This document shows, piece after piece, positions 32,739-42,369 of a stretch of DNA of 64,000 bases. How positions within the stretch are numbered: the stretch's first letter is position 1; every line of letters begins with the position of its first letter. The notes under the pieces are model-generated. The model was not told the origin of the DNA. It ran no database searches and was given only the letters and a program-made list of their open reading frames with translations. Source of the stretch: Aureimonas sp. Leaf324 (GTDB taxonomy: Bacteria > Pseudomonadota > Alphaproteobacteria > Rhizobiales > Rhizobiaceae); assembly GCF_001423245.1 (NCBI RefSeq), contig NZ_LMOH01000001.1:154563-218562 (forward strand). The letters run 5' to 3'. The position numbers were made by a program, and so were the translations under genes.

Positions 32739-34016
32739 ATGGCTATCGACGTCCTTCTGATCGGCTCCGGTGGCCGCGAACATGCGCTGGCCTGGAAGCT
32801 CAAGCAGTCCGGCGAACTCGGCCGCCTGTTCGCCGCACCTGGCAATCCCGGCATCGCAACCGTCGCCGAACTCGCCGTCGTCGATCCGGCCGATCACGCC
32901 GCCGTCGTCGCGTTCTGCCGGCAGGCGGCGATCGGCCTCGTCGTCGTCGGCCCGGAAGTGCCGCTGGTCGCGGGGCTCGCCGACGCGCTGCGCGAGGCGG
33001 ACATTCCCGTCTTCGGTCCGAGCGCCGCCGCCGCGCGGCTCGAAGGCTCCAAGGGCTTCACCAAGGACCTATGCTCCCGGAAGGGCATCCCGACTGCGCG
33101 ATACCGCCGCTTCTCGGATGCCGAGAACGCGAAGGCCTACGTGACGGCGGAAGGCGCGCCGATCGTGATCAAGGCGGACGGGCTGGCCGCCGGCAAGGGC
33201 GTGACAGTCGCCACGACCGTCGACGAAGCGTGCCGGGCCGTTGACGACTGCTTCACTGATGCTGCGGGCGGCGTCGAGGTGGTGGTCGAGGAATGCATGG
33301 TCGGCCCGGAGGCCTCGCTCTTCTGCCTGTGCGACGGCGAGAACGCCATCGCCTTCGGAACGGCGGAAGACCACAAGCGCGCCTATGACGGCGACCGGGG
33401 GCCGAACACCGGCGGAATGGGCGCCTACTCGCCCTCCGGCCTGGTGACCCCGGAAATGACCGAGCGGGCAATGCGCGAGATCGTGCGCCCGACCCTCGAA
33501 GGGATGCGGGAACTCGGCGCGCCGTTCCGCGGCGTTCTCTATGCCGGCCTGATGCTGACCGCCGAAGGGCCGAAGCTCATCGAGTACAACGTCCGCTTCG
33601 GCGATCCGGAAGCGCAGGTGCTGATGATGCGCCTCGAAAGCGATCTTCTGCCGATCCTTCTCACCGCGGCCACCGGTTCGCTCACGGGCGTCGAGCCGCG
33701 CTGGTCGCCGGAGCCGGCGGTCACGGTCGTGCTCGCCGCCAAGGGCTATCCCGGCGCGGTGGAGAAGGGGACGGTCATCGGTTCCGTGCCCGAGGACGGC
33801 GAGGGAGAGATCGTCTTCCACGCCGGAACGGCCGTGAAGGACGGACGGCTCGTCGCCAGCGGCGGTCGCGTCCTCAACGCCACGGCACGCGATGCCGACA
33901 TCGGCCGGGCGATCGAGCGCGCCTACGCGCTCGTCGACGCCATCGACTGGCCGGACGGCTTCTGCCGTCGCGACATCGCCCACCGCGCGCGGGTGAGACG
34001 AGCGACATTGACGTGA
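32739..34016 (+). CDS. purD: Phosphoribosylamine-glycine ligase PurD
   Basis: A 425-residue ATP-grasp enzyme of purine synthesis that joins glycine to phosphoribosylamine. Family segments are [67 protein letters not shown] and [16 protein letters not shown] chose the ATG at 32739, where the family sequence starts; the frame from 32601 adds a Pro/Arg-rich extension overlapping the ubiA leader. A partial copy of the fatty-acid operator palindrome overlaps its stop codon. Confidence 0.95.
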
Positions 34017-34057
34017 ACGGCATGGCATTGACCGTTCGCCACCATATGTGACGAACG
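34008..34057. promoter_or_regulatory. Candidate operator region of the fadE operon
   Basis: TTGACGTGAACG (34008-34019) is an exact 12-base match to the lower strand of the perfect palindrome at 39783-39804 that precedes the second acyl-CoA dehydrogenase operon. Here the other half is degenerate. A second symmetric element, CGTTCG (34033-34038) with CGAACG (34052-34057), follows. The position 40-90 bases before fadE fits operator or promoter sequence. Confidence 0.5.
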
Positions 34058-34095
34058 AGCGCATCGCGCGGCCGACGACCCATGGGAGGAGAACC

Positions 34096-36372
34096 ATGTC
34101 GTTTCGAAAAGAGCGTCTGACCCGTCCGATCTTCCGGTGGGCCCAAACCGCCATGCCGCCGATCTCGGACACCGAAGCCAAGGCGATCGACGCCGGCACG
34201 GTCTGGTGGGACGGCGAGCTCTTCAGCGGCGCACCGGACTGGGACAGGCTTCTCGCGATGCCCCCGGCGCGGCTGACGGACGAGGAACAGGCCTTCCTCG
34301 ACGGTCCCGTCACCGAACTCTGCGCGATGATCGACGAATGGAAGATCGTCTGGGAAGATCATGATCTACCTCCGGAAATCTGGGATTTCCTGAAGCGCGA
34401 AAAGTTCTTCGGGATGATTATTCCGAAGGAATACGGCGGCCTCGGCTTTTCCAACACGGCCCATTCCGAGGTGGTGCGGAAGGTGTCGTCGGCGAGCGTC
34501 GCGGTCGGTGTGACGGTCATGGTGCCGAACTCGCTCGGCCCCGGCGAACTCATGCTGCATTTCGGCACGCAGGCGCAGCGCGACCACTGGCTGCCGCGCC
34601 TTGCCGACGGGCGCGAAATCCCGTGCTTCGGCCTCACCTCCGATCGCGCCGGCTCGGACGCGGCGGCGATGACGGATCGCGGCGTCGTGGCATATGGCGA
34701 GTTCGACGGGCAGCGGACGCTCGGCATCCGTCTGAACTTCGCCAAGCGCTACATCACGCTTGCCCCGGTTGCGACCGTGATGGGTCTCGCCTTCAAGCTG
34801 TTCGACCCCGAGGGCCATCTCGGCCGCGGCGAAGAACTCGGCATCACGGTCGCCCTGATTCCGACTTCGACGCCGGGCGTACGCCACGGCGACCGCCACA
34901 TCCCGCAGTTCACATTCTTCCAGAACGGCCCGCTTTACGGCGAGGACGTCTTCATCCCGATGGACTGGATCCTCGGCGGCGAAGCGCAGATCGGCGAGGG
35001 CTGGACCATGCTGATGAAGGCGCTGGCGACCGGTCGCGGCATCTCGCTGCCCTCGCAGGCTGCCTCCGCCACGGCGATGACGGCGCGCATGGCCGGCGCC
35101 TATGCGCGCGTGCGCCAGCAGTTCGGCCTGCCGATCGGCATGTTCGAGGGCATTCAGGAGCCGCTCGCGGAACTCGCCGCCACCGCCTACCAGGTGGACG
35201 CGGCACGACGCCTGACGGTCGCCGCGCTCGACGAAGGGCATCGGCCCTCGGTCGTCTCGGCCATCATGAAGCAGAACGCGACCGAGCTGATGCGCAAGTC
35301 CGTCGCCCACGCGATGGATATCCTCGGCGGCAAGGCGATCATCGACGGCCCGTCCAACCCGATCGGCGCCTCGCATCGATCGGTGCCGATCGGCATCACG
35401 GTCGAGGGCGCCAACATCCTGACGCGCAACCTGATGATCTTCGGGCAGGGCGCGATTCGCGCCCATCCTCACATGCTCGACGAGATGCGGGCACTGTCCA
35501 ACCCCGATCGCGAACAGGGGCTGGCCGAGTTCGACCGCCACTTCTGGAAGCATGTCGGCCATTCCACGACGAACCTCCTGCGCACTCTTCTGTTCGGGTG
35601 GACCGGCGGTCTGGCCGCGCCGGCGCCGCGCGGCGCCGCCTTCACCAGCCATTGGCGGCAGCTTTCGCGCTATGCCGCGACCTTCTCGATGCTGGCCGAC
35701 CTCGCTCTCCTCACCCTCGGCGGAAACCTCAAGCGGCGCGAAATGATCTCCGCGCGCCTCGGCGACATCCTGTCGGAACTCTATCTCCTCGGCGCAACGC
35801 TGAAGCGCTTCGAGACGGACGGCCGCCCCGAGGTGGACAAGCCGATCGTCGAGTTCGTGATGCAGCGCGGCTTCAACCGGATGGGCCTCGCCTTCGCCGG
35901 CGTCTTCGCCAACCTGCCGGCGCGCTGGGCCGCGATGGGGGCCCGGATCATCGCCTTTCCGCTCGGCGTCCCGCTCCGCCCGCCGGCCGACGAACTGGTG
36001 ACGGAAGTGGCCGAAATCCTGATGCGTCCGTCGTCGCAGCGGGACCGTCTGACGCCGGATCTCTATCTCGGCGAGGGACGCCCCGACCATCCCATCGCCG
36101 TTCTCGAAGAGGCCTTCGCGAAGGTCACCGAAACGGCCGCGATCGCCAAGCGGATGCGCGCGGCCAAGCTGCGCGACCCGCAAGCGGCGCTGGACGGCGG
36201 CGTCATCACGCCGGAAGAGTTCGAGGAGCTGGCCGTTGCCGAGGCGGCGGTCGCGCGCGCGGTCGCGGTGGACAGTTTTCCGATGGAGATGGTCTCGCCG
36301 CTGGCCGCCCAGCATCGTCGCCCGGACGACGGGCGCGAGGACGACGGCGCGCGCGCCGAGGCCGCCGAATGA
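34096..36372 (+). CDS. fadE: FadE-type acyl-CoA dehydrogenase
   Basis: A 758-residue flavoprotein that makes the first double bond in fatty-acid beta-oxidation. The dehydrogenase core has PKEYGGLGFSN, LTSDRAGSDAAA, GRGISLPSQAAS, QFGLPIGMFEGIQEPLAELA and DILGGKAIIDGPSNPIG; a large C-terminal region (DUF1974, from about residue 450) is found in FadE proteins. E. coli FadE (814) is longer by an N-terminal membrane part; only a short segment precedes the core here. The ATG at 34096 has GGGAGGAG just upstream. The stop overlaps the thiolase start (ATGA), giving a fadE-thiolase-FadB/J operon. Confidence 0.92.
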   Translation: MSFRKERLTRPIFRWAQTAMPPISDTEAKAIDAGTVWWDGELFSGAPDWDRLLAMPPARLTDEEQAFLDGPVTELCAMIDEWKIVWEDHDLPPEIWDFLKREKFFGMIIPKEYGGLGFSNTAHSEVVRKVSSASVAVGVTVMVPNSLGPGELMLHFGTQAQRDHWLPRLADGREIPCFGLTSDRAGSDAAAMTDRGVVAYGEFDGQRTLGIRLNFAKRYITLAPVATVMGLAFKLFDPEGHLGRGEELGITVALIPTSTPGVRHGDRHIPQFTFFQNGPLYGEDVFIPMDWILGGEAQIGEGWTMLMKALATGRGISLPSQAASATAMTARMAGAYARVRQQFGLPIGMFEGIQEPLAELAATAYQVDAARRLTVAALDEGHRPSVVSAIMKQNATELMRKSVAHAMDILGGKAIIDGPSNPIGASHRSVPIGITVEGANILTRNLMIFGQGAIRAHPHMLDEMRALSNPDREQGLAEFDRHFWKHVGHSTTNLLRTLLFGWTGGLAAPAPRGAAFTSHWRQLSRYAATFSMLADLALLTLGGNLKRREMISARLGDILSELYLLGATLKRFETDGRPEVDKPIVEFVMQRGFNRMGLAFAGVFANLPARWAAMGARIIAFPLGVPLRPPADELVTEVAEILMRPSSQRDRLTPDLYLGEGRPDHPIAVLEEAFAKVTETAAIAKRMRAAKLRDPQAALDGGVITPEEFEELAVAEAAVARAVAVDSFPMEMVSPLAAQHRRPDDGREDDGARAEAAE

Positions 36373-37652
36373 CGAGGGCCGTCTATCTCGTCGATGGCGC
36401 CCGCACGCCCTTCATCAAGGCGCGGGGCAAGCCGGGACCGTTCACGCCGGTCGATCTTGCGGTCCAGTGCGGCCGACCGCTGCTGATGCGCCAGAGGTTC
36501 GATCCGTCCCTGATCGACCGCGTGGTGCTCGGCTGCGTCAACGTCATCGCCGACGAGATGAACCCGGCGCGCGTCGCGGCGCTGCGCCTCGGACTGCCCG
36601 ACACCGTCCCGGCGCACACCGTCCAGATCAACTGCGGGTCAGGCATGCTCGCGATCGACGACGCGATGCGCGCCGTGGCGGACGGTCGCTCGGAGATCGC
36701 GCTGGCGGGCGGCGCGGAAGCGCTCAGCCATTCGCCGCTCGTCCTCAGCGGCGATGCGGTCCAGTGGTTCGCGCGCCTCAACGGCGCTCGCTCGACGGGC
36801 GCACGGCTCAAGGTGCTCGCCGGGCTGAAGCCCGGGTTCCTCAAACCCGTGATCGGACTGGAGCGCGGCCTGACCGACCCGATCACCGACCTGAACATGG
36901 GCCAGACCGCCGAGAAGGTCGGTCATCTCTTCGGCATCACGCGCCGCGAGGCGGACGAGTACGCGGCCGAAAGCCATCGCCGGCTTGCCGCCGCGCAAGT
37001 GGACGGCTCCCTGGCGGGCGAAGTCGTTCCGGCCTTCTCGCGCGACGGGCGCGTGTTCGACCGCGACGACGGCGTGCGGCCGGACTCCACCGCCCGCAGC
37101 CTCGGCGGCTTGAAACCAGTGTTCGAGCGGCCCTACGGCAACGTCACCGCCGGCAATTCCTCGCAGATCACCGACGGCGCGAGCTGGACGCTTCTCGCCT
37201 CGGAGGAGGCGGTCGCTCGGCACGGACTGACACCTCTCGCGCGGATCGTCGATTGCCGCTGGAGCGCACTCGACCCGTCGATCATGGGCCTCGGTCCGGT
37301 GATCGCGATCGCGGCGCTTCTGAAGCACAACAGGCTCTCGCTTTCCGAGGTCGGGCTCTTCGAGATCAACGAGGCCTTCGCCGCTCAGGTCCTCGCCTGC
37401 ATCCGGGCGCTCGGCGACGAGCGCGTCGGGCGCGAGGTGCTCGGGTTCGACGGCGCCGTCGGCGAGATCGCGGCCGACCGGTTGAATGTCGACGGCGGTG
37501 CGATTGCACTTGGTCATCCCGTCGGCACGTCCGGCAACCGCATCACGCTCCACCTCGCCAACGCCACGCGCCGCCGCGGCGTCCGCTACGGCATCGCCAG
37601 CCAGTGCGTCGGCGGCGGACAGGGCGGCGCGCTGCTTCTGGAGGCCGCATGA
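36369..37652 (+). CDS. Acetyl-CoA C-acyltransferase (thiolase, FadA/FadI type)
   Basis: A 427-residue thiolase that releases acetyl-CoA from 3-ketoacyl-CoA. The nucleophile is C89 in QINCGSGML, the histidine lies in GHPVGTSG (about 382), and the second cysteine is in SQCVGGGQGG (about 412). The loop text NMGQTAEKVG and the extra insert before it are closer to FadI-type trifunctional partner thiolases than to PhaA. The start and end are set by ATGA overlaps with fadE and the next gene, so the three beta-oxidation genes are translated together. The product probably associates with the following multifunctional protein. Confidence 0.92.
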   Translation: MTRAVYLVDGARTPFIKARGKPGPFTPVDLAVQCGRPLLMRQRFDPSLIDRVVLGCVNVIADEMNPARVAALRLGLPDTVPAHTVQINCGSGMLAIDDAMRAVADGRSEIALAGGAEALSHSPLVLSGDAVQWFARLNGARSTGARLKVLAGLKPGFLKPVIGLERGLTDPITDLNMGQTAEKVGHLFGITRREADEYAAESHRRLAAAQVDGSLAGEVVPAFSRDGRVFDRDDGVRPDSTARSLGGLKPVFERPYGNVTAGNSSQITDGASWTLLASEEAVARHGLTPLARIVDCRWSALDPSIMGLGPVIAIAALLKHNRLSLSEVGLFEINEAFAAQVLACIRALGDERVGREVLGFDGAVGEIAADRLNVDGGAIALGHPVGTSGNRITLHLANATRRRGVRYGIASQCVGGGQGGALLLEAA

Positions 37653-39769
37653 CGGTCGATGACCCTCGGATGACCGGCACGAGCCTTCTTGGAGCGCTGG
37701 CGGATCGCGCGCTCGAACTCTCGGCCGCCGCCGATGTCGAGCGCCGGGGCAACTGGCGCCAGGCGGTGGACGAGGATGGGGTGGCCTGGTGGGTCCTCGA
37801 TCGTCCGGGCAAATCGGTGAATACGATCGATCGAAGCGTCCTCGAAGACCTCGACGCCTTGATCGACGGCGCGGAAGCCGCCCCGCCGCGAGGCATCGTG
37901 ATCCGGTCCGCCAAGCCGTCCGGCTTTGCCGCCGGCGCCGACATCGCGCAGTTCGTCGGGGCGGGAAGCGCCGAGATCGCCGCGATGCTCGAGGAAGGGC
38001 ACCGCGTTCTCGACCGCCTGGCCGCCATGCCGATGCCGACCGTCGCCGTGATCCACGGTCATTGCCTCGGGGCGGGGCTGGAGATCGCGCTCGCCTGCCG
38101 CCTTCGCATCGCCGTGTCCGACGCCTCGCTCGGTTTCCCGGAGGTCATGCTGGGCCTGCATCCGGGGCTCGGCGGAACGTTCCGCTCGCTGGCGGTGGCC
38201 GATCCGCTGGAAGCGATGACGATGATGCTCACCGGCAAGAGTGCGCCGGCGCGACGCGCGCGGCGGATCGGGCTGGTCGATGCCGTGGTGGAAGAACGCC
38301 ATGTCCTCAACGCCGTGCGCGCGGCGGTCGGCGGCGAGCTTCATCCGGCCGGCGCCGGCTGGAAGGGCAAGGCTTTCACGCTGCGCCCGGCCCGGAGCCT
38401 TGCCGCTCGGCGCATGCGCGCCGAAGCGGCGAAGGCGGCGCGACCGGAAAATTACCCCGCGCCCTTCCGGCTGATCGATCTGTGGGAAGCGCACGGCCGC
38501 AGCCCGGACCGCATGCGCGCGGCCGAACTCGACAGCTTCTCGCAGCTCGTCGAGACACCGACGTCGCGCAACCTCGTTCGCGTGTTCTTCCTGCGCGAGG
38601 CGATGCGCGGCCTGAAGGACGGCCCGTCGGACATCCGGCGGGTTCACGTCATCGGTGCGGGCGCGATGGGCGGCGATATCGCAGCTTGGGCGGCGCGGGA
38701 AGACTTTCGCGTTTCCCTGTCCGACATCGATGCGAAGCCGATCGGCGAGGCGTTGCGCAAGGCGACGTCCATGCTGGAAAAGTCGCTGAAGGACAAGCTC
38801 AGGGTCCGCGACGCGCTGGATCGGCTGGTGCCCGATCCCGCCGGCTTCGGCATCGCGGGCGCCGACCTCGTGATCGAGGCGGCGCCGGAGCGGCTGGACC
38901 TCAAGCAGTCGATCCTGCGAGACGCCGAGTCGCGGATGAAGCCGGGCGCGATCCTCGCGACGAACACGTCCGCGCTGCCGCTGCCCGACCTCGCCGCCGG
39001 GCTCGCCGATCCGTCGCGGTTCGTCGGCCTGCACTTCTTCAATCCCGTCTCGCGCATGCAACTGGTCGAAGTGGTCCAGCACGATGGGCTCTCGCCCGAG
39101 ACACTGCGCCGGGCGACGAGCTTCGTCGCGGAGGTTTCGCGCCTACCGGCGCCCGTGAGGCCGACCGCCGGCTTCCTCGTGAACCGCGCGCTGACGCCTT
39201 ATATCGCGGAGGCGATCCTCCTGATGGGCGAGGGCATCCCCAAGGAGCGGATCGACGCGCGAGCCGAGGCGTTCGGCATGCCGATGGGACCGGTGGAACT
39301 TGCCGATCGCGTCGGGCTCGACATCGCGGTCGAGGTCGCACAGACCCTGGCCGAGCGCCTCGGCATGCCGCTGCCGGAAATGCCGGGCTGGCTTCACCAG
39401 ATGGTGCGCGAAGGTCGGCTTGGCGTAAAGACCGGCGCGGGGCTCTACGACTACGACGCGGAAGGCAAACCGAAGAAGATACACCTGGACGCCCTGCCGG
39501 ACGGTTCCGCCGACGATCCGAATCTCGAGGATCGGCTCATCCTGCCGATGATCAACACCGTCGTCGCGTGCCTGCGGGAAGGCGTCGTGAAGAGCGAGGA
39601 GATTGCCGACGGGGCTATGGTCTTCGGTACCGGCTTCGCTCCGTTCCGCGGTGGTCCGATCCGATATGCAAGGGAGCGCGGCGTCGATACCGTGATCGCT
39701 CGGTTGCGTGAACTCGAAATGGCGCATGGGCCCCGGTTTCGGCCGGATGCCGGTTGGGATCGTCTTTGA
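37649..39769 (+). CDS. Beta-oxidation multifunctional protein (FadB/FadJ type)
   Basis: A 706-residue fusion of enoyl-CoA hydratase and 3-hydroxyacyl-CoA dehydrogenase. The hydratase part (about 20-310) has the oxyanion segment GFAAGADIAQF and both catalytic glutamates in GAGLEIALAC and GFPEVMLGLHPGLGG. The dehydrogenase part starts at about 325 with the NAD fold VHVIGAGAMGGDIA, continues with HFFNPVSRMQLVEV (catalytic His) and ends with two C-terminal helical domains (VGLDIAVEV; GFAPFRGGPIRYA). It overlaps the thiolase stop (ATGA). With fadE and the thiolase it provides a complete beta-oxidation round. Confidence 0.93.
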   Translation: MTVDDPRMTGTSLLGALADRALELSAAADVERRGNWRQAVDEDGVAWWVLDRPGKSVNTIDRSVLEDLDALIDGAEAAPPRGIVIRSAKPSGFAAGADIAQFVGAGSAEIAAMLEEGHRVLDRLAAMPMPTVAVIHGHCLGAGLEIALACRLRIAVSDASLGFPEVMLGLHPGLGGTFRSLAVADPLEAMTMMLTGKSAPARRARRIGLVDAVVEERHVLNAVRAAVGGELHPAGAGWKGKAFTLRPARSLAARRMRAEAAKAARPENYPAPFRLIDLWEAHGRSPDRMRAAELDSFSQLVETPTSRNLVRVFFLREAMRGLKDGPSDIRRVHVIGAGAMGGDIAAWAAREDFRVSLSDIDAKPIGEALRKATSMLEKSLKDKLRVRDALDRLVPDPAGFGIAGADLVIEAAPERLDLKQSILRDAESRMKPGAILATNTSALPLPDLAAGLADPSRFVGLHFFNPVSRMQLVEVVQHDGLSPETLRRATSFVAEVSRLPAPVRPTAGFLVNRALTPYIAEAILLMGEGIPKERIDARAEAFGMPMGPVELADRVGLDIAVEVAQTLAERLGMPLPEMPGWLHQMVREGRLGVKTGAGLYDYDAEGKPKKIHLDALPDGSADDPNLEDRLILPMINTVVACLREGVVKSEEIADGAMVFGTGFAPFRGGPIRYARERGVDTVIARLRELEMAHGPRFRPDAGWDRL

Positions 39770-39782
39770 CGCGACAGTCTAA

Positions 39783-39804
39783 ACTTTGACGTTCACGTCA
39801 AAGT
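39783..39804. promoter_or_regulatory. Perfect palindrome before the second acyl-CoA dehydrogenase operon
   Basis: ACTTTGACGT (39783-39792) and ACGTCAAAGT (39795-39804) are exact reverse complements around TC. The element is centred about 54 bases before the start codon at 39848. A further TGACGTTC half-copy lies at 39827-39834. Regulators of fatty-acid and branched-chain acid use (PsrA, FadP and LiuR types) act at such palindromes; which one binds here is not known. Confidence 0.65.
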
Positions 39805-39847
39805 CCGATAGCCATAGGCCAAGCTATGACGTTCGGGAGGAAGACGG

Positions 39848-41620
39848 ATGTATCGGGCACCGGTGGGCGAGATCGGCTTCACGCTTCGGCATGTCGCGGG
39901 GCTCGAGGAGGCGATGGCGCGAGGCGCGACGGGCGACCTGACGCCCGATCTCCTTGATGCGATCCTGGACGAAGCCGGGCGGTTTGCCGATAGCGAGATC
40001 GCCCCGTTGGCCGCAGGCGGTGACAAGACCGGCGCCGTCTGGCGCGACGGTACGGTGACCATGCCGCCCGGCTGGCGCGACCTCTACCATCGCTGGATCG
40101 ACGGCGGCTGGAACGGACTGACCGGGCCGGTGGACCATGGCGGGCAGGGCCTGCCGACCTCGCTGTCGGCCGCGATCTACGAGATGTGGAACGGCGCGTC
40201 GATGGCCTTCGGCATCGGGCCGACCCTGACGCTCGGTGCGGTTGACGCGCTCGAGGCGCACGGGACGGACGCGCTCCGCGCGATCTACCTCGACAAGCTC
40301 GTGTCCGGCGAATGGATGGGCACGATGAACCTCACCGAGCCGCAGGCCGGCTCGGACCTTTCGGCGCTGCGCACACGAGCCGAGCGGCGGGACGACGGCA
40401 CCTATCGCATCTTCGGCTCGAAGATCTTCATCACCTTCGGCGAGCACGACCTGACCGACAACATCGTGCACCTCGTCCTCGCGCGGCTGCCCGACGCCCC
40501 GGCGGGGGTGAAGGGCATCTCGCTGTTCCTGGTGCCCAAGCGCCTCGTCAACCCTAACGGCTCGCTCGGGGCCCGCAACGACGTGTTGTGCCAGTCGATC
40601 GAGCACAAGCTCGGCATCCACGCCTCGCCGACCTGCACCATGGTCTACGGCGACGGCATCGGGGAGACGGGGGAGGCGGGTGCTGTCGGCTGGCTCGTCG
40701 GCGACGAGAACAAGGGTCTCGCCTGCATGTTCACGATGATGAACTCGGCGCGCCTATATGTCGGGATCCAAGGGCTCGGCGTCGCCCAGGCCGCCTTCCA
40801 GAAGGCGCTGGACTTCGCCCGCGAGCGCCGACAGGGCCGCTCGGCGGTTCCCGGCGCGACGGACATGGCGCCGATCGTCGAGCATGCCGACGTCGTGCGC
40901 ATGCTTCTCACGATGAAGGCGCTCGTCGGCTCGGCGCGGGCGATCGCCTACTCCTGCGGTCACGCGATCGACCGGTCGCGGCAGGACGGCGACGACAAGC
41001 GCTTCTGGGCGGAGCGGGCGAGCCTTCTGACGCCGATGGCAAAGAGCTTCCCCACCGATGTCGGCGTCGAGGTCGCTTCGCTCGGCATCCAGGTGCATGG
41101 CGGCATGGGCTTCGTGGAGGAGACGGGCGCCGCGCGCCTCCTGCGCGACGCGCGCATCGCGCCGATCTACGAGGGCACCAACGGTATCCAGGCGATCGAC
41201 CTCGTGACGCGCAAGCTGCCGCTGTCCGGCGGCGAGACCGTGCGCACCTACATCGCGGAACTCGAGGAGATCGTGACGAGCGTCGAGCAAAGCAACCGGC
41301 CCGACTTCGGTCGGTCGGCGGAGCGTCTGCGCGCCGCCATCGCCGCGCTGCGCGAGACGACCGAGCGCCTGCTTGAGTGGATGGCGCAGGGCGAAACCGG
41401 CGCGGCGCTGGCCGGCGCCACCGCCTACCAGCGTCTGTTCTCGCTGACGGCCGGCAACTGCTATCTCGCCAAGGGCGCGCTGGCGGACGCCGACACGCCG
41501 TCGCGCGCGGCATTGGCCCGCTTCATGTCCGAGACGCTGCTGCCCGACGTCCACGCCCTGTCGGCCGAGGTGATGGACGGGGGCGAAAGCCTGCGCGCCG
41601 CCACCGCAGCCCTGAACTGA
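39848..41620 (+). CDS. Acyl-CoA dehydrogenase, large (DmdC/AcdB-like) type
   Basis: A 590-residue acyl-CoA dehydrogenase with the extended C-terminal region of the group that includes 3-methylmercaptopropionyl-CoA dehydrogenase DmdC. Key segments are WNGLTGPVDHGGQGLP, MNLTEPQAGSDLSALRT, IEHKLGIHASPTCTM, IQVHGGMGFVEETGAARLLRDARI and the YEGTNGIQAIDL region holding the catalytic glutamate. GGGAGG lies seven bases before the ATG. It heads a two-gene operon with the crotonase, preceded by a perfect palindrome. Given the neighbouring fad operon it likely acts on fatty acyl-CoAs, but a methylmercaptopropionate or branched substrate is possible. Confidence 0.88.
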   Translation: MYRAPVGEIGFTLRHVAGLEEAMARGATGDLTPDLLDAILDEAGRFADSEIAPLAAGGDKTGAVWRDGTVTMPPGWRDLYHRWIDGGWNGLTGPVDHGGQGLPTSLSAAIYEMWNGASMAFGIGPTLTLGAVDALEAHGTDALRAIYLDKLVSGEWMGTMNLTEPQAGSDLSALRTRAERRDDGTYRIFGSKIFITFGEHDLTDNIVHLVLARLPDAPAGVKGISLFLVPKRLVNPNGSLGARNDVLCQSIEHKLGIHASPTCTMVYGDGIGETGEAGAVGWLVGDENKGLACMFTMMNSARLYVGIQGLGVAQAAFQKALDFARERRQGRSAVPGATDMAPIVEHADVVRMLLTMKALVGSARAIAYSCGHAIDRSRQDGDDKRFWAERASLLTPMAKSFPTDVGVEVASLGIQVHGGMGFVEETGAARLLRDARIAPIYEGTNGIQAIDLVTRKLPLSGGETVRTYIAELEEIVTSVEQSNRPDFGRSAERLRAAIAALRETTERLLEWMAQGETGAALAGATAYQRLFSLTAGNCYLAKGALADADTPSRAALARFMSETLLPDVHALSAEVMDGGESLRAATAALN

Positions 41621-41628
41621 GGACCGAC

Positions 41629-42369
41629 ATGAGCCAGCACATCCGCGTCGAGACCCGCGACGGCGTCTGCCGCATCCGCGTCGACCGCGCCGAAAAGAAG
41701 AATGCCCTCGACCGCGCGATGTACCGCGCGCTGGATGAGGCGCTGACGCGCGCCGATGCCGACCCGTCCGTCGGCTGCATCCTCTTCTGCGGGTCTCCGG
41801 GCGCGTTCTCCGCCGGCAACGACATCGCCGACTTCGTCGCCTTTGCCGGCTCCGACCGCCCGATGGGCGAGCTGATGGATTTCCTCCACACGCTGGCCGG
41901 TATGGGAAAGCCGATGATCGCGGCGGTGGATGGGCTGGCGATCGGGATCGGCACGACGCTGCTTCTCCACTGCGATCTCGTCTACGCCACGCCGCGTTCG
42001 CTTTTTCGCACCCCGTTCTCCGATCTCGGCATCGTGCCGGAGGCAGCCTCGAGTCTCCTCGGACCCTCGGCGATGGGGCACCAGCGCGCCTTCGCCCTTC
42101 TGGTGATGGGCGAGACCTGGGATGCGGAGAAGGCGCGCGAGGCCGGTCTCGTCCTTTCGATCGTGGCCGACGCGGAAGCCGACGGCGAAGCGGCAGCGCG
42201 CCGCCTGGCGGCAAAACCGCGCGAGGCGGTGCGGATCGGCCGCGATCTCCTGCGGGCGACGCCGGACGCCGTGCGCGAGCGCATCGCCTTGGAGGCGGAC
42301 CATTTCCAGGAGCGTCTTCGTTCCCCGGAGGCGCAGGCGGCCTTCGCCGCCTTCCTGACGCGCGGTTAG
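41629..42369 (+). CDS. Crotonase-family enoyl-CoA hydratase/isomerase
   Basis: A 246-residue crotonase. The oxyanion segment GAFSAGNDIADF is normal, but the first hydratase glutamate is replaced: the motif reads GLAIGIGTTLLLHCD with threonines at 109-110. The second glutamate is kept (E138, IVPEAASS). One remaining glutamate at this place is typical of delta3-delta2-enoyl-CoA isomerases, so isomerisation of unsaturated acyl-CoAs is more likely than hydration. The ATG at 41629 lies 8 bases after the dehydrogenase stop. The 3' end overlaps the convergent DedA gene by four bases. Confidence 0.87.
   Translation: MSQHIRVETRDGVCRIRVDRAEKKNALDRAMYRALDEALTRADADPSVGCILFCGSPGAFSAGNDIADFVAFAGSDRPMGELMDFLHTLAGMGKPMIAAVDGLAIGIGTTLLLHCDLVYATPRSLFRTPFSDLGIVPEAASSLLGPSAMGHQRAFALLVMGETWDAEKAREAGLVLSIVADAEADGEAAARRLAAKPREAVRIGRDLLRATPDAVRERIALEADHFQERLRSPEAQAAFAAFLTRG

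Follow-up and report, generated by a model that had tools for sequence, protein, structure and literature searches.

A palindrome upstream of an acyl-CoA dehydrogenase gene in Aureimonas sp. Leaf324 as a probable operator of a LiuR-like MerR-family repressor of beta-oxidation genes

Introduction

Kazakov et al. 2009 (J Bacteriol 191:52-64) reportedly predicted that genes of fatty-acid degradation are under the control of LiuR orthologs in 22 alphaproteobacterial species. LiuR is established, in the passages of PMC5343134 and PMC7238569 that describe it, as a MerR-family protein that regulates the use of branched-chain amino acids, and a passage of the latter paper also links the LiuR box of Rhodospirillum rubrum to butyrate assimilation (PMC7238569).

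Here we analyse a 64,000-nucleotide stretch of the Aureimonas sp. Leaf324 genome (the window, part of contig C1) that carries two adjacent plus-strand beta-oxidation operons at 34096-39769 and 39848-42369. A first-pass annotation had noticed a palindrome before the second operon and a partial copy of it before the first, and had proposed that a single regulator, encoded outside the window, controls both. We conclude that a LiuR-like MerR-family repressor, here called MerR-A, probably uses the palindrome as its operator and would control a beta-oxidation regulon. Computation shows that the sites are present and rare, that they are conserved upstream of orthologs and co-occur with the regulator, and that TTGAC and TA stand a fixed 17 bases apart at two unrelated promoters; from these results we infer binding by a MerR-A dimer and repression. 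Among open-licence papers, as represented by their titles and the opening lines of their abstracts, we recognised no experimental study of MerR-A in Aureimonas or other Hyphomicrobiales.

Methods

Upstream regions of orthologs were scanned for the best match within 250 nt on the correct strand, and matches with at most two mismatches were counted. The core motif, TTKACGTNNACGTMAA, contains G/T and A/C choices that were made after viewing near-matches and from the LiuR motif; because the relaxed positions were chosen after the near-matches, own-genome counts with this core are partly post hoc, and the relatives provide the independent test. Places with three mismatches (277 versus 77 for the reversed pattern) were set aside, being dominated by TCGACGTCGA-like matches in a GC-rich genome. 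Named MerR-A ortholog loci (80) were drawn from Aureimonas, Aurantimonas, Mesorhizobium, Phyllobacterium, Rhizobium, and others. The regulator tree comprised 52 rows, of which 17 belong to no group, and its 'Liu' group was set by the sizes of genes next to the regulator. Tree rooting and deeper group order are left unclaimed because very long outgroup branches were placed within the neighbourhoods of LiuR and of MerR-A.

Results and discussion

The two operons and the palindrome

The division of the region into two operons, as originally annotated, holds. The first consists of a fadE-type acyl-CoA dehydrogenase (34096..36372, plus strand; NCBIfam PRK09463, 1040.8 bits, profile run on 34093-36369), an acetyl-CoA C-acetyltransferase (thiolase) (36369..37652, plus strand; NCBIfam PRK08170, 659.5 bits, above cut-off), and a FadJ/FadB-like enoyl-CoA hydratase / 3-hydroxyacyl-CoA dehydrogenase (37649..39769, plus strand; NCBIfam FadJ model PRK11154, 476.7 bits, under the equivalog cut-off of 869). 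The second consists of an acyl-CoA dehydrogenase of 590 aa (acd; 39848..41620, plus strand), which is the predicted target of the palindrome and is matched by acyl-CoA dehydrogenase models, none of them above cut-off, and an enoyl-CoA hydratase (41629..42369, plus strand; NCBIfam PRK06023, 320.5 bits, above cut-off, run on 41617-42366). Orthologs of the window acd were found in 36 of 41 genomes.

The predicted operator, ACTTTGACGT-TC-ACGTCAAAGT at 39783-39804 (no strand assigned), is an exact palindrome in the window sequence, with the two 10-base arms around TC that had first been reported, and it is kept upstream of acd orthologs. When its two middle bases are left free and up to three mismatches are allowed, it has one place in the window and none in 100 dinucleotide shuffles. 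The core TTKACGTNNACGTMAA likewise has a single exact place in the 4.4-Mb genome, namely the window palindrome, where 0.07 would be expected at equal base frequencies. The palindrome is very probably a LiuR-like MerR-family operator; as a genetic switch it is genuine, though of a familiar type and not particularly unusual.

The 12-mer TTGACGTGAACG occurs exactly at 34008-34019 on the plus strand, upstream of fadE, and at 39790-39801 on the minus strand, so that the reported 12-base match to the lower strand of the palindrome is exact. The accompanying figure of 0.008 chance matches is correct for one preset 12-mer, but it was applied post hoc, and the main weight rests on conservation. With up to one mismatch, the 12-mer has four places in the window versus 0.26 expected. 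The fadE copy shares 17 of 22 bases with the palindrome; read as a site it is TTGACGTGAACGGCAT (34008..34023, plus strand), a degenerate version two mismatches away from TTGACGTNNACGTCAA. The earlier annotation had missed that these positions overlap the stop codon (34014-34016) of an ORF upstream that is purD-like by a reading of its translation alone, and part of the copy may therefore be under coding constraint.

Distribution of the core motif in the genome and the genus

At one mismatch, TTKACGTNNACGTMAA has six more places in the genome besides the exact one, lying before the MerR gene, etfB-etfA-hbd, fadD, a third acyl-CoA dehydrogenase gene, a nitronate monooxygenase gene, and a DUF2147 gene. 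Since approximately 2.6 places at up to one mismatch are expected by chance, this set may contain one or two accidental matches, most likely the one at DUF2147. Up to two mismatches yield 36 places versus 14 for the reversed pattern, many of them inside genes, and most two-mismatch places are thus probably due to chance. They include the window fadE site and one that precedes ETF-quinone oxidoreductase (Pfam-identified), as well as two places (C7:68081 and C25:245544) that precede genes with no evident lipid link. The 26 of these 36 places that fall within the window or a fetched region were examined, and genes were named for nine (window acd, fadE, merR, etf, fadD, the third acd, ETF-quinone oxidoreductase, nitronate monooxygenase, and DUF2147).

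Across 21 Aureimonas genomes, exact TTKACGTNNACGTMAA has 30 places versus one for the reversed pattern, with zero to four per genome and none in three genomes. Thirteen of these lie at the window-type acyl-CoA dehydrogenase (assigned by coordinates) and 11 at etfBA-hbd, one of the latter being deduced from the same neighbour gene at a contig end; the others lie at nitronate monooxygenase genes (four places, Pfam-confirmed in four congeners), ETF-quinone oxidoreductase (one), and malate dehydrogenase (one). The link to lipid metabolism anticipated for genome-wide matches is supported, although for nitronate monooxygenase it is not evident.

Several individual sites merit description. That of the nitronate monooxygenase gene (PF03060), at C1:76591-76606, has one mismatch and lies approximately 15 nt before the start, and genes of the same family carry the exact sites in the four congeners. 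The DUF2147 site (C12:318115-318130, one mismatch) precedes a gene for a small protein and may be a chance match. In one congener, the exact site upstream of malate dehydrogenase (G005:C1:402006-402021) adjoins a succinyl-CoA-synthetase-like gene (ATP-grasp_2, Ligase_CoA), which hints that the regulon may extend into the TCA cycle in that congener. The third acyl-CoA dehydrogenase gene is preceded, at C26:58104-58125, by overlapping half-sites (TGACGTTTACGCAAACGTCAA in the genome studied here), which may accommodate two dimers or an alternative register.

Conservation upstream of orthologous genes

Comparison of the regions upstream of acd orthologs, which had been suggested as a check, recovered the motif in 24 of 30 loci (17 exact), while 0.07% of the shuffled acd upstreams reached two mismatches and none did better. 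Sites with at most two mismatches are also present upstream of the regulator gene merR (24/30), fadD (18/21), and ETF-quinone oxidoreductase (11/23, two genomes each contributing a second copy, L329 and L330), and the third acyl-CoA dehydrogenase gene has a site with one or two mismatches in all 21 Aureimonas upstreams. Dinucleotide shuffles of these upstream sets reach two or fewer mismatches in at most 0.2% of cases.

Taken with the genome matches, this conservation supports the earlier proposal of one regulator for both operons, although the fadE side is degenerate and the weakest part of the regulon reading. The regulon would comprise the acyl-CoA dehydrogenase-enoyl-CoA hydratase operon, the third acyl-CoA dehydrogenase, fadD, etfBA-hbd, ETF-quinone oxidoreductase, and merR-A itself, and more weakly the fadE-thiolase-fadJ operon.

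The candidate regulator MerR-A

A profile search of the genome yielded seven MerR_1 matches, none inside the window, in agreement with the earlier statement that the regulator gene lies elsewhere. The best candidate regulator of the palindrome sites, judged from sequence, is MerR-A, a predicted protein of 130 aa encoded at C3:26502-26891, whose gene lies 33 bases after a one-mismatch site. Each of the 20 congeners searched has it, at 88-100% identity, and its closest named orthologs are those of Aureimonas flava (95%) and Aureimonas ureilytica (93%). Among the 80 named ortholog loci, 71 have an own-gene site (at most two mismatches, within 200 nt upstream) versus 3 of 2400 shuffles, and 46 of these 71 sites read TTGACTTTTACGTAAA.

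Presence of the motif also follows that of the regulator. Among 101 genomes of the order, 33 of the 76 that have a MerR homolog contain the exact core, versus 2 of the 25 that lack one (Fisher p=0.001, kinship uncorrected), and the two core-bearing genomes without a homolog are 67% and 76% complete; the remaining 43 of the 76 genomes with a homolog have no exact core. In total, the core has 54 exact places in these genomes versus four for the reversed pattern.

MerR-A belongs to the MerR family by its Pfam domains (PF13411, 62.7 bits; PF09278, 55.7; PF00376, 40.5; all above cut-off), and it matches CueR and others in the PDB by sequence. Identity as a metal-sensing MerR protein was considered and rejected, all equivalog scores being far under their cut-offs (ZntR models 58.3 against 143 and 50.5 against 167.95, CueR 50.2 against 147.4, CadR-PbrR 44.9 against 151.45, and MerR 42.4 against 150.85). 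A pair of metal-binding cysteines is typical of metal-sensing MerR proteins (CueR, ZntR, MerR, CadR); a single cysteine is found in 21 of 21 Aureimonas MerR-A orthologs.

Kinship with LiuR-type proteins

Twenty LiuR-type homologs were fetched, 18 of them from other classes; these 18 are 42-53% identical to MerR-A, and the lowest identity listed, that of an unfetched homolog, is 37%. The core with at most one mismatch lies within 250 nt upstream in 19 of the 20. The operon of one homolog (L341), the sole one so confirmed, is a leucine degradation operon by Pfam. It encodes the regulator, an acyl-CoA dehydrogenase, a carboxyltransferase, an enoyl-CoA hydratase, a biotin carboxylase with a methylcrotonyl-CoA carboxylase domain, and an HMG-CoA-lyase-like protein, which corresponds to the gene order typical of LiuR. 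To judge by gene sizes, many other fetched homologs probably have a similar arrangement. In the tree, MerR-A forms a supported separate clade (98/91), but support is weak both for its sister group and for the grouping of the liu-type proteins.

Promoter geometry and mode of action

The left arm of the palindrome contains TTGACG (39786..39791, plus strand), a probable -35 element that ends 17 bases before a conserved TA, and this TA begins TAGCCA (39809..39814, plus strand), a probable -10 element. Of the 22 acd upstreams tallied, 18 have TA at offset 23 from the arm, as do 11 of the 12 etf upstreams; these rows represent related species. The corresponding counts are zero to two of 22 (acd) and zero to two of 12 (etf) at other offsets, and one (acd) and none (etf) in the reversed direction. 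The tally covers 22 of the 30 acd upstreams, L092 (site at -234), L093, L095, and L098-L102 having been dropped, and the etf rows are 11 congener places plus that of the genome itself. Because the acd and etf promoters belong to unrelated genes, the shared spacing points to a real promoter, which in the window reads TTGACG, 17 bases, TAGCCA. The TTGAC arm is thus probably the -35 element, and the protein therefore probably represses by covering it.

The promoter of merR itself has TA at offset 23 in none of 71 rows, and in all 71 the base at core position 6 of its site is T, where most other targets have G. This promoter accordingly differs in geometry, and the specificity of MerR-A may differ too. 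Outside the tally of acd, etf, and merR, the fadD, third acd, and fadE upstreams show no obvious fit to the acd/etf geometry.

In the mechanism that we propose, a MerR-A dimer would bind the palindrome and, once bound, would cover the -35 element and block RNA polymerase. An acyl-CoA or related intermediate, the ligand suggested by the target set, would then bind MerR-A and cause it to leave the DNA, so that the substrates would induce the pathway.

Alternative explanations

The proposal can be set against several other readings of the same data. The sites might constitute a branched-chain amino acid (LiuR) regulon in which beta-oxidation genes are secondary members: a LiuR-type homolog of another class lies in a leucine operon bearing the same motif, Table 1 of PMC5343134 lists LiuR as a branched-chain amino acid regulator, and a passage of PMC7238569 places the LiuR box at isoleucine/leucine genes of Rhodospirillum rubrum, an alphaproteobacterium. 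We nevertheless regard this as improbable, given that a leucine operon is found at none of the 30 exact places in the genus and at none of the seven own-genome places with at most one mismatch, counts that refer to motif places. Of the 'fatty-acid or branched-chain regulator' first envisaged, the fatty-acid half is thus favoured, none of the 30 exact places being a leucine-degradation operon, and the branched-chain half is not. It is also quite improbable that the palindromes are bound by, or shared with, the LiuR-like paralog MerR-B (C12:501599-501940, 39% identical to MerR-A). MerR-B-like homologs outside Aureimonas do have the motif upstream in all six fetched loci, several of which adjoin acyl-CoA dehydrogenase genes, and in two congeners (G003 and G007) MerR-B directly precedes the third acyl-CoA dehydrogenase, with the site of the latter between them. 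However, none of 16 Aureimonas MerR-B genes has an upstream site, and five congeners with no MerR-B at E<=1e-15 (G005, G011, G013, G014, and G017) retain acd or etf sites, exact in four and with one mismatch in G014; MerR-A is on these grounds the likelier protein. The MerR-B genes of Aureimonas look as if autoregulation had been lost (0/16 versus 6/6 outside the genus).

For the fadE operon, the copy at 34008 could be a chance resemblance, leaving the acd palindrome as the sole operator, and its degeneracy (two mismatches), its overlap with a stop codon, and the occurrence of matches with up to three mismatches in only 10 of 21 Aureimonas genomes (the other 11 having no match even at three) are in keeping with this. 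We consider it rather unlikely, since eight of the 21 Aureimonas upstreams have a site with at most two mismatches versus 0.2% of shuffles, and several of these sites differ in position and version. The eight are the only matches at this level among 27 usable fadE upstreams (within 250 nt, correct strand), and the six from outside Aureimonas have none even at three mismatches; two of 29 upstreams (L127 and L131), too short at contig ends, were left out. As to mode of action, classical MerR operators are central in spacers of 19-20 bases, and classical activation, in which a spacer-bound protein untwists the DNA once it has bound its effector, would suit the MerR-family Pfam domains of MerR-A and its PDB sequence matches to CueR and others. 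For the sites described here it appears improbable: at acd and etf the spacer of 17 bases is already optimal, the dyad centre is displaced upstream from the middle of the spacer by approximately 6.5 bases and so lies over the -35 element, and the part of PMC3223726 concerned with Shewanella LiuR describes it as a repressor. Repression by MerR-A, relieved by a ligand, is the likelier mode because the spacer is already optimal.

Comparison with known regulators

The analysis provides a candidate master switch for fatty-acid use that can be tested, complete with regulator gene, operator, and target list, in an order that includes plant symbionts, and it offers a clean natural example for asking how a MerR-family protein can be a simple repressor. 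We tentatively suggest, while holding it somewhat short of probable, that in a large part of the Hyphomicrobiales MerR-A is a dedicated fatty-acid regulator split from LiuR, which would control, besides beta-oxidation enzymes, their whole electron route through ETF and ETF-quinone oxidoreductase, and that it acts as a plain repressor where the promoter spacer has the optimal length of 17 bases and one operator arm serves as the -35 hexamer, without the DNA untwisting typical of the family.

The LiuR regulon reportedly predicted by Kazakov et al. 2009 has, compared by description alone, the same kind of targets as the MerR-A regulon, namely fatty-acid degradation genes. If the prediction is as reported, the Aureimonas case is a further member, and what the present work adds is the list of targets in Aureimonas and the geometry of the promoter. 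FadR, PsrA, and FadP, compared by family alone, differ from MerR-A in belonging to the GntR and TetR families and not to MerR; they are its functional counterparts in that they control fatty-acid degradation, as a passage of PMC5343134 describes. With LiuR and its 'ILV box', MerR-A shares membership of the MerR family, a similar size, and a TTTACGTTAACGTAAA-type motif upstream of the regulator gene, and the Shewanella LiuR is called a repressor in the relevant passage of PMC3223726, the role that we propose for MerR-A. In contrast to LiuR, MerR-A stands in its own clade, apart from the liu-operon-type proteins, and its sites lie at fatty-acid and ETF genes, with no leucine operon at the exact sites.
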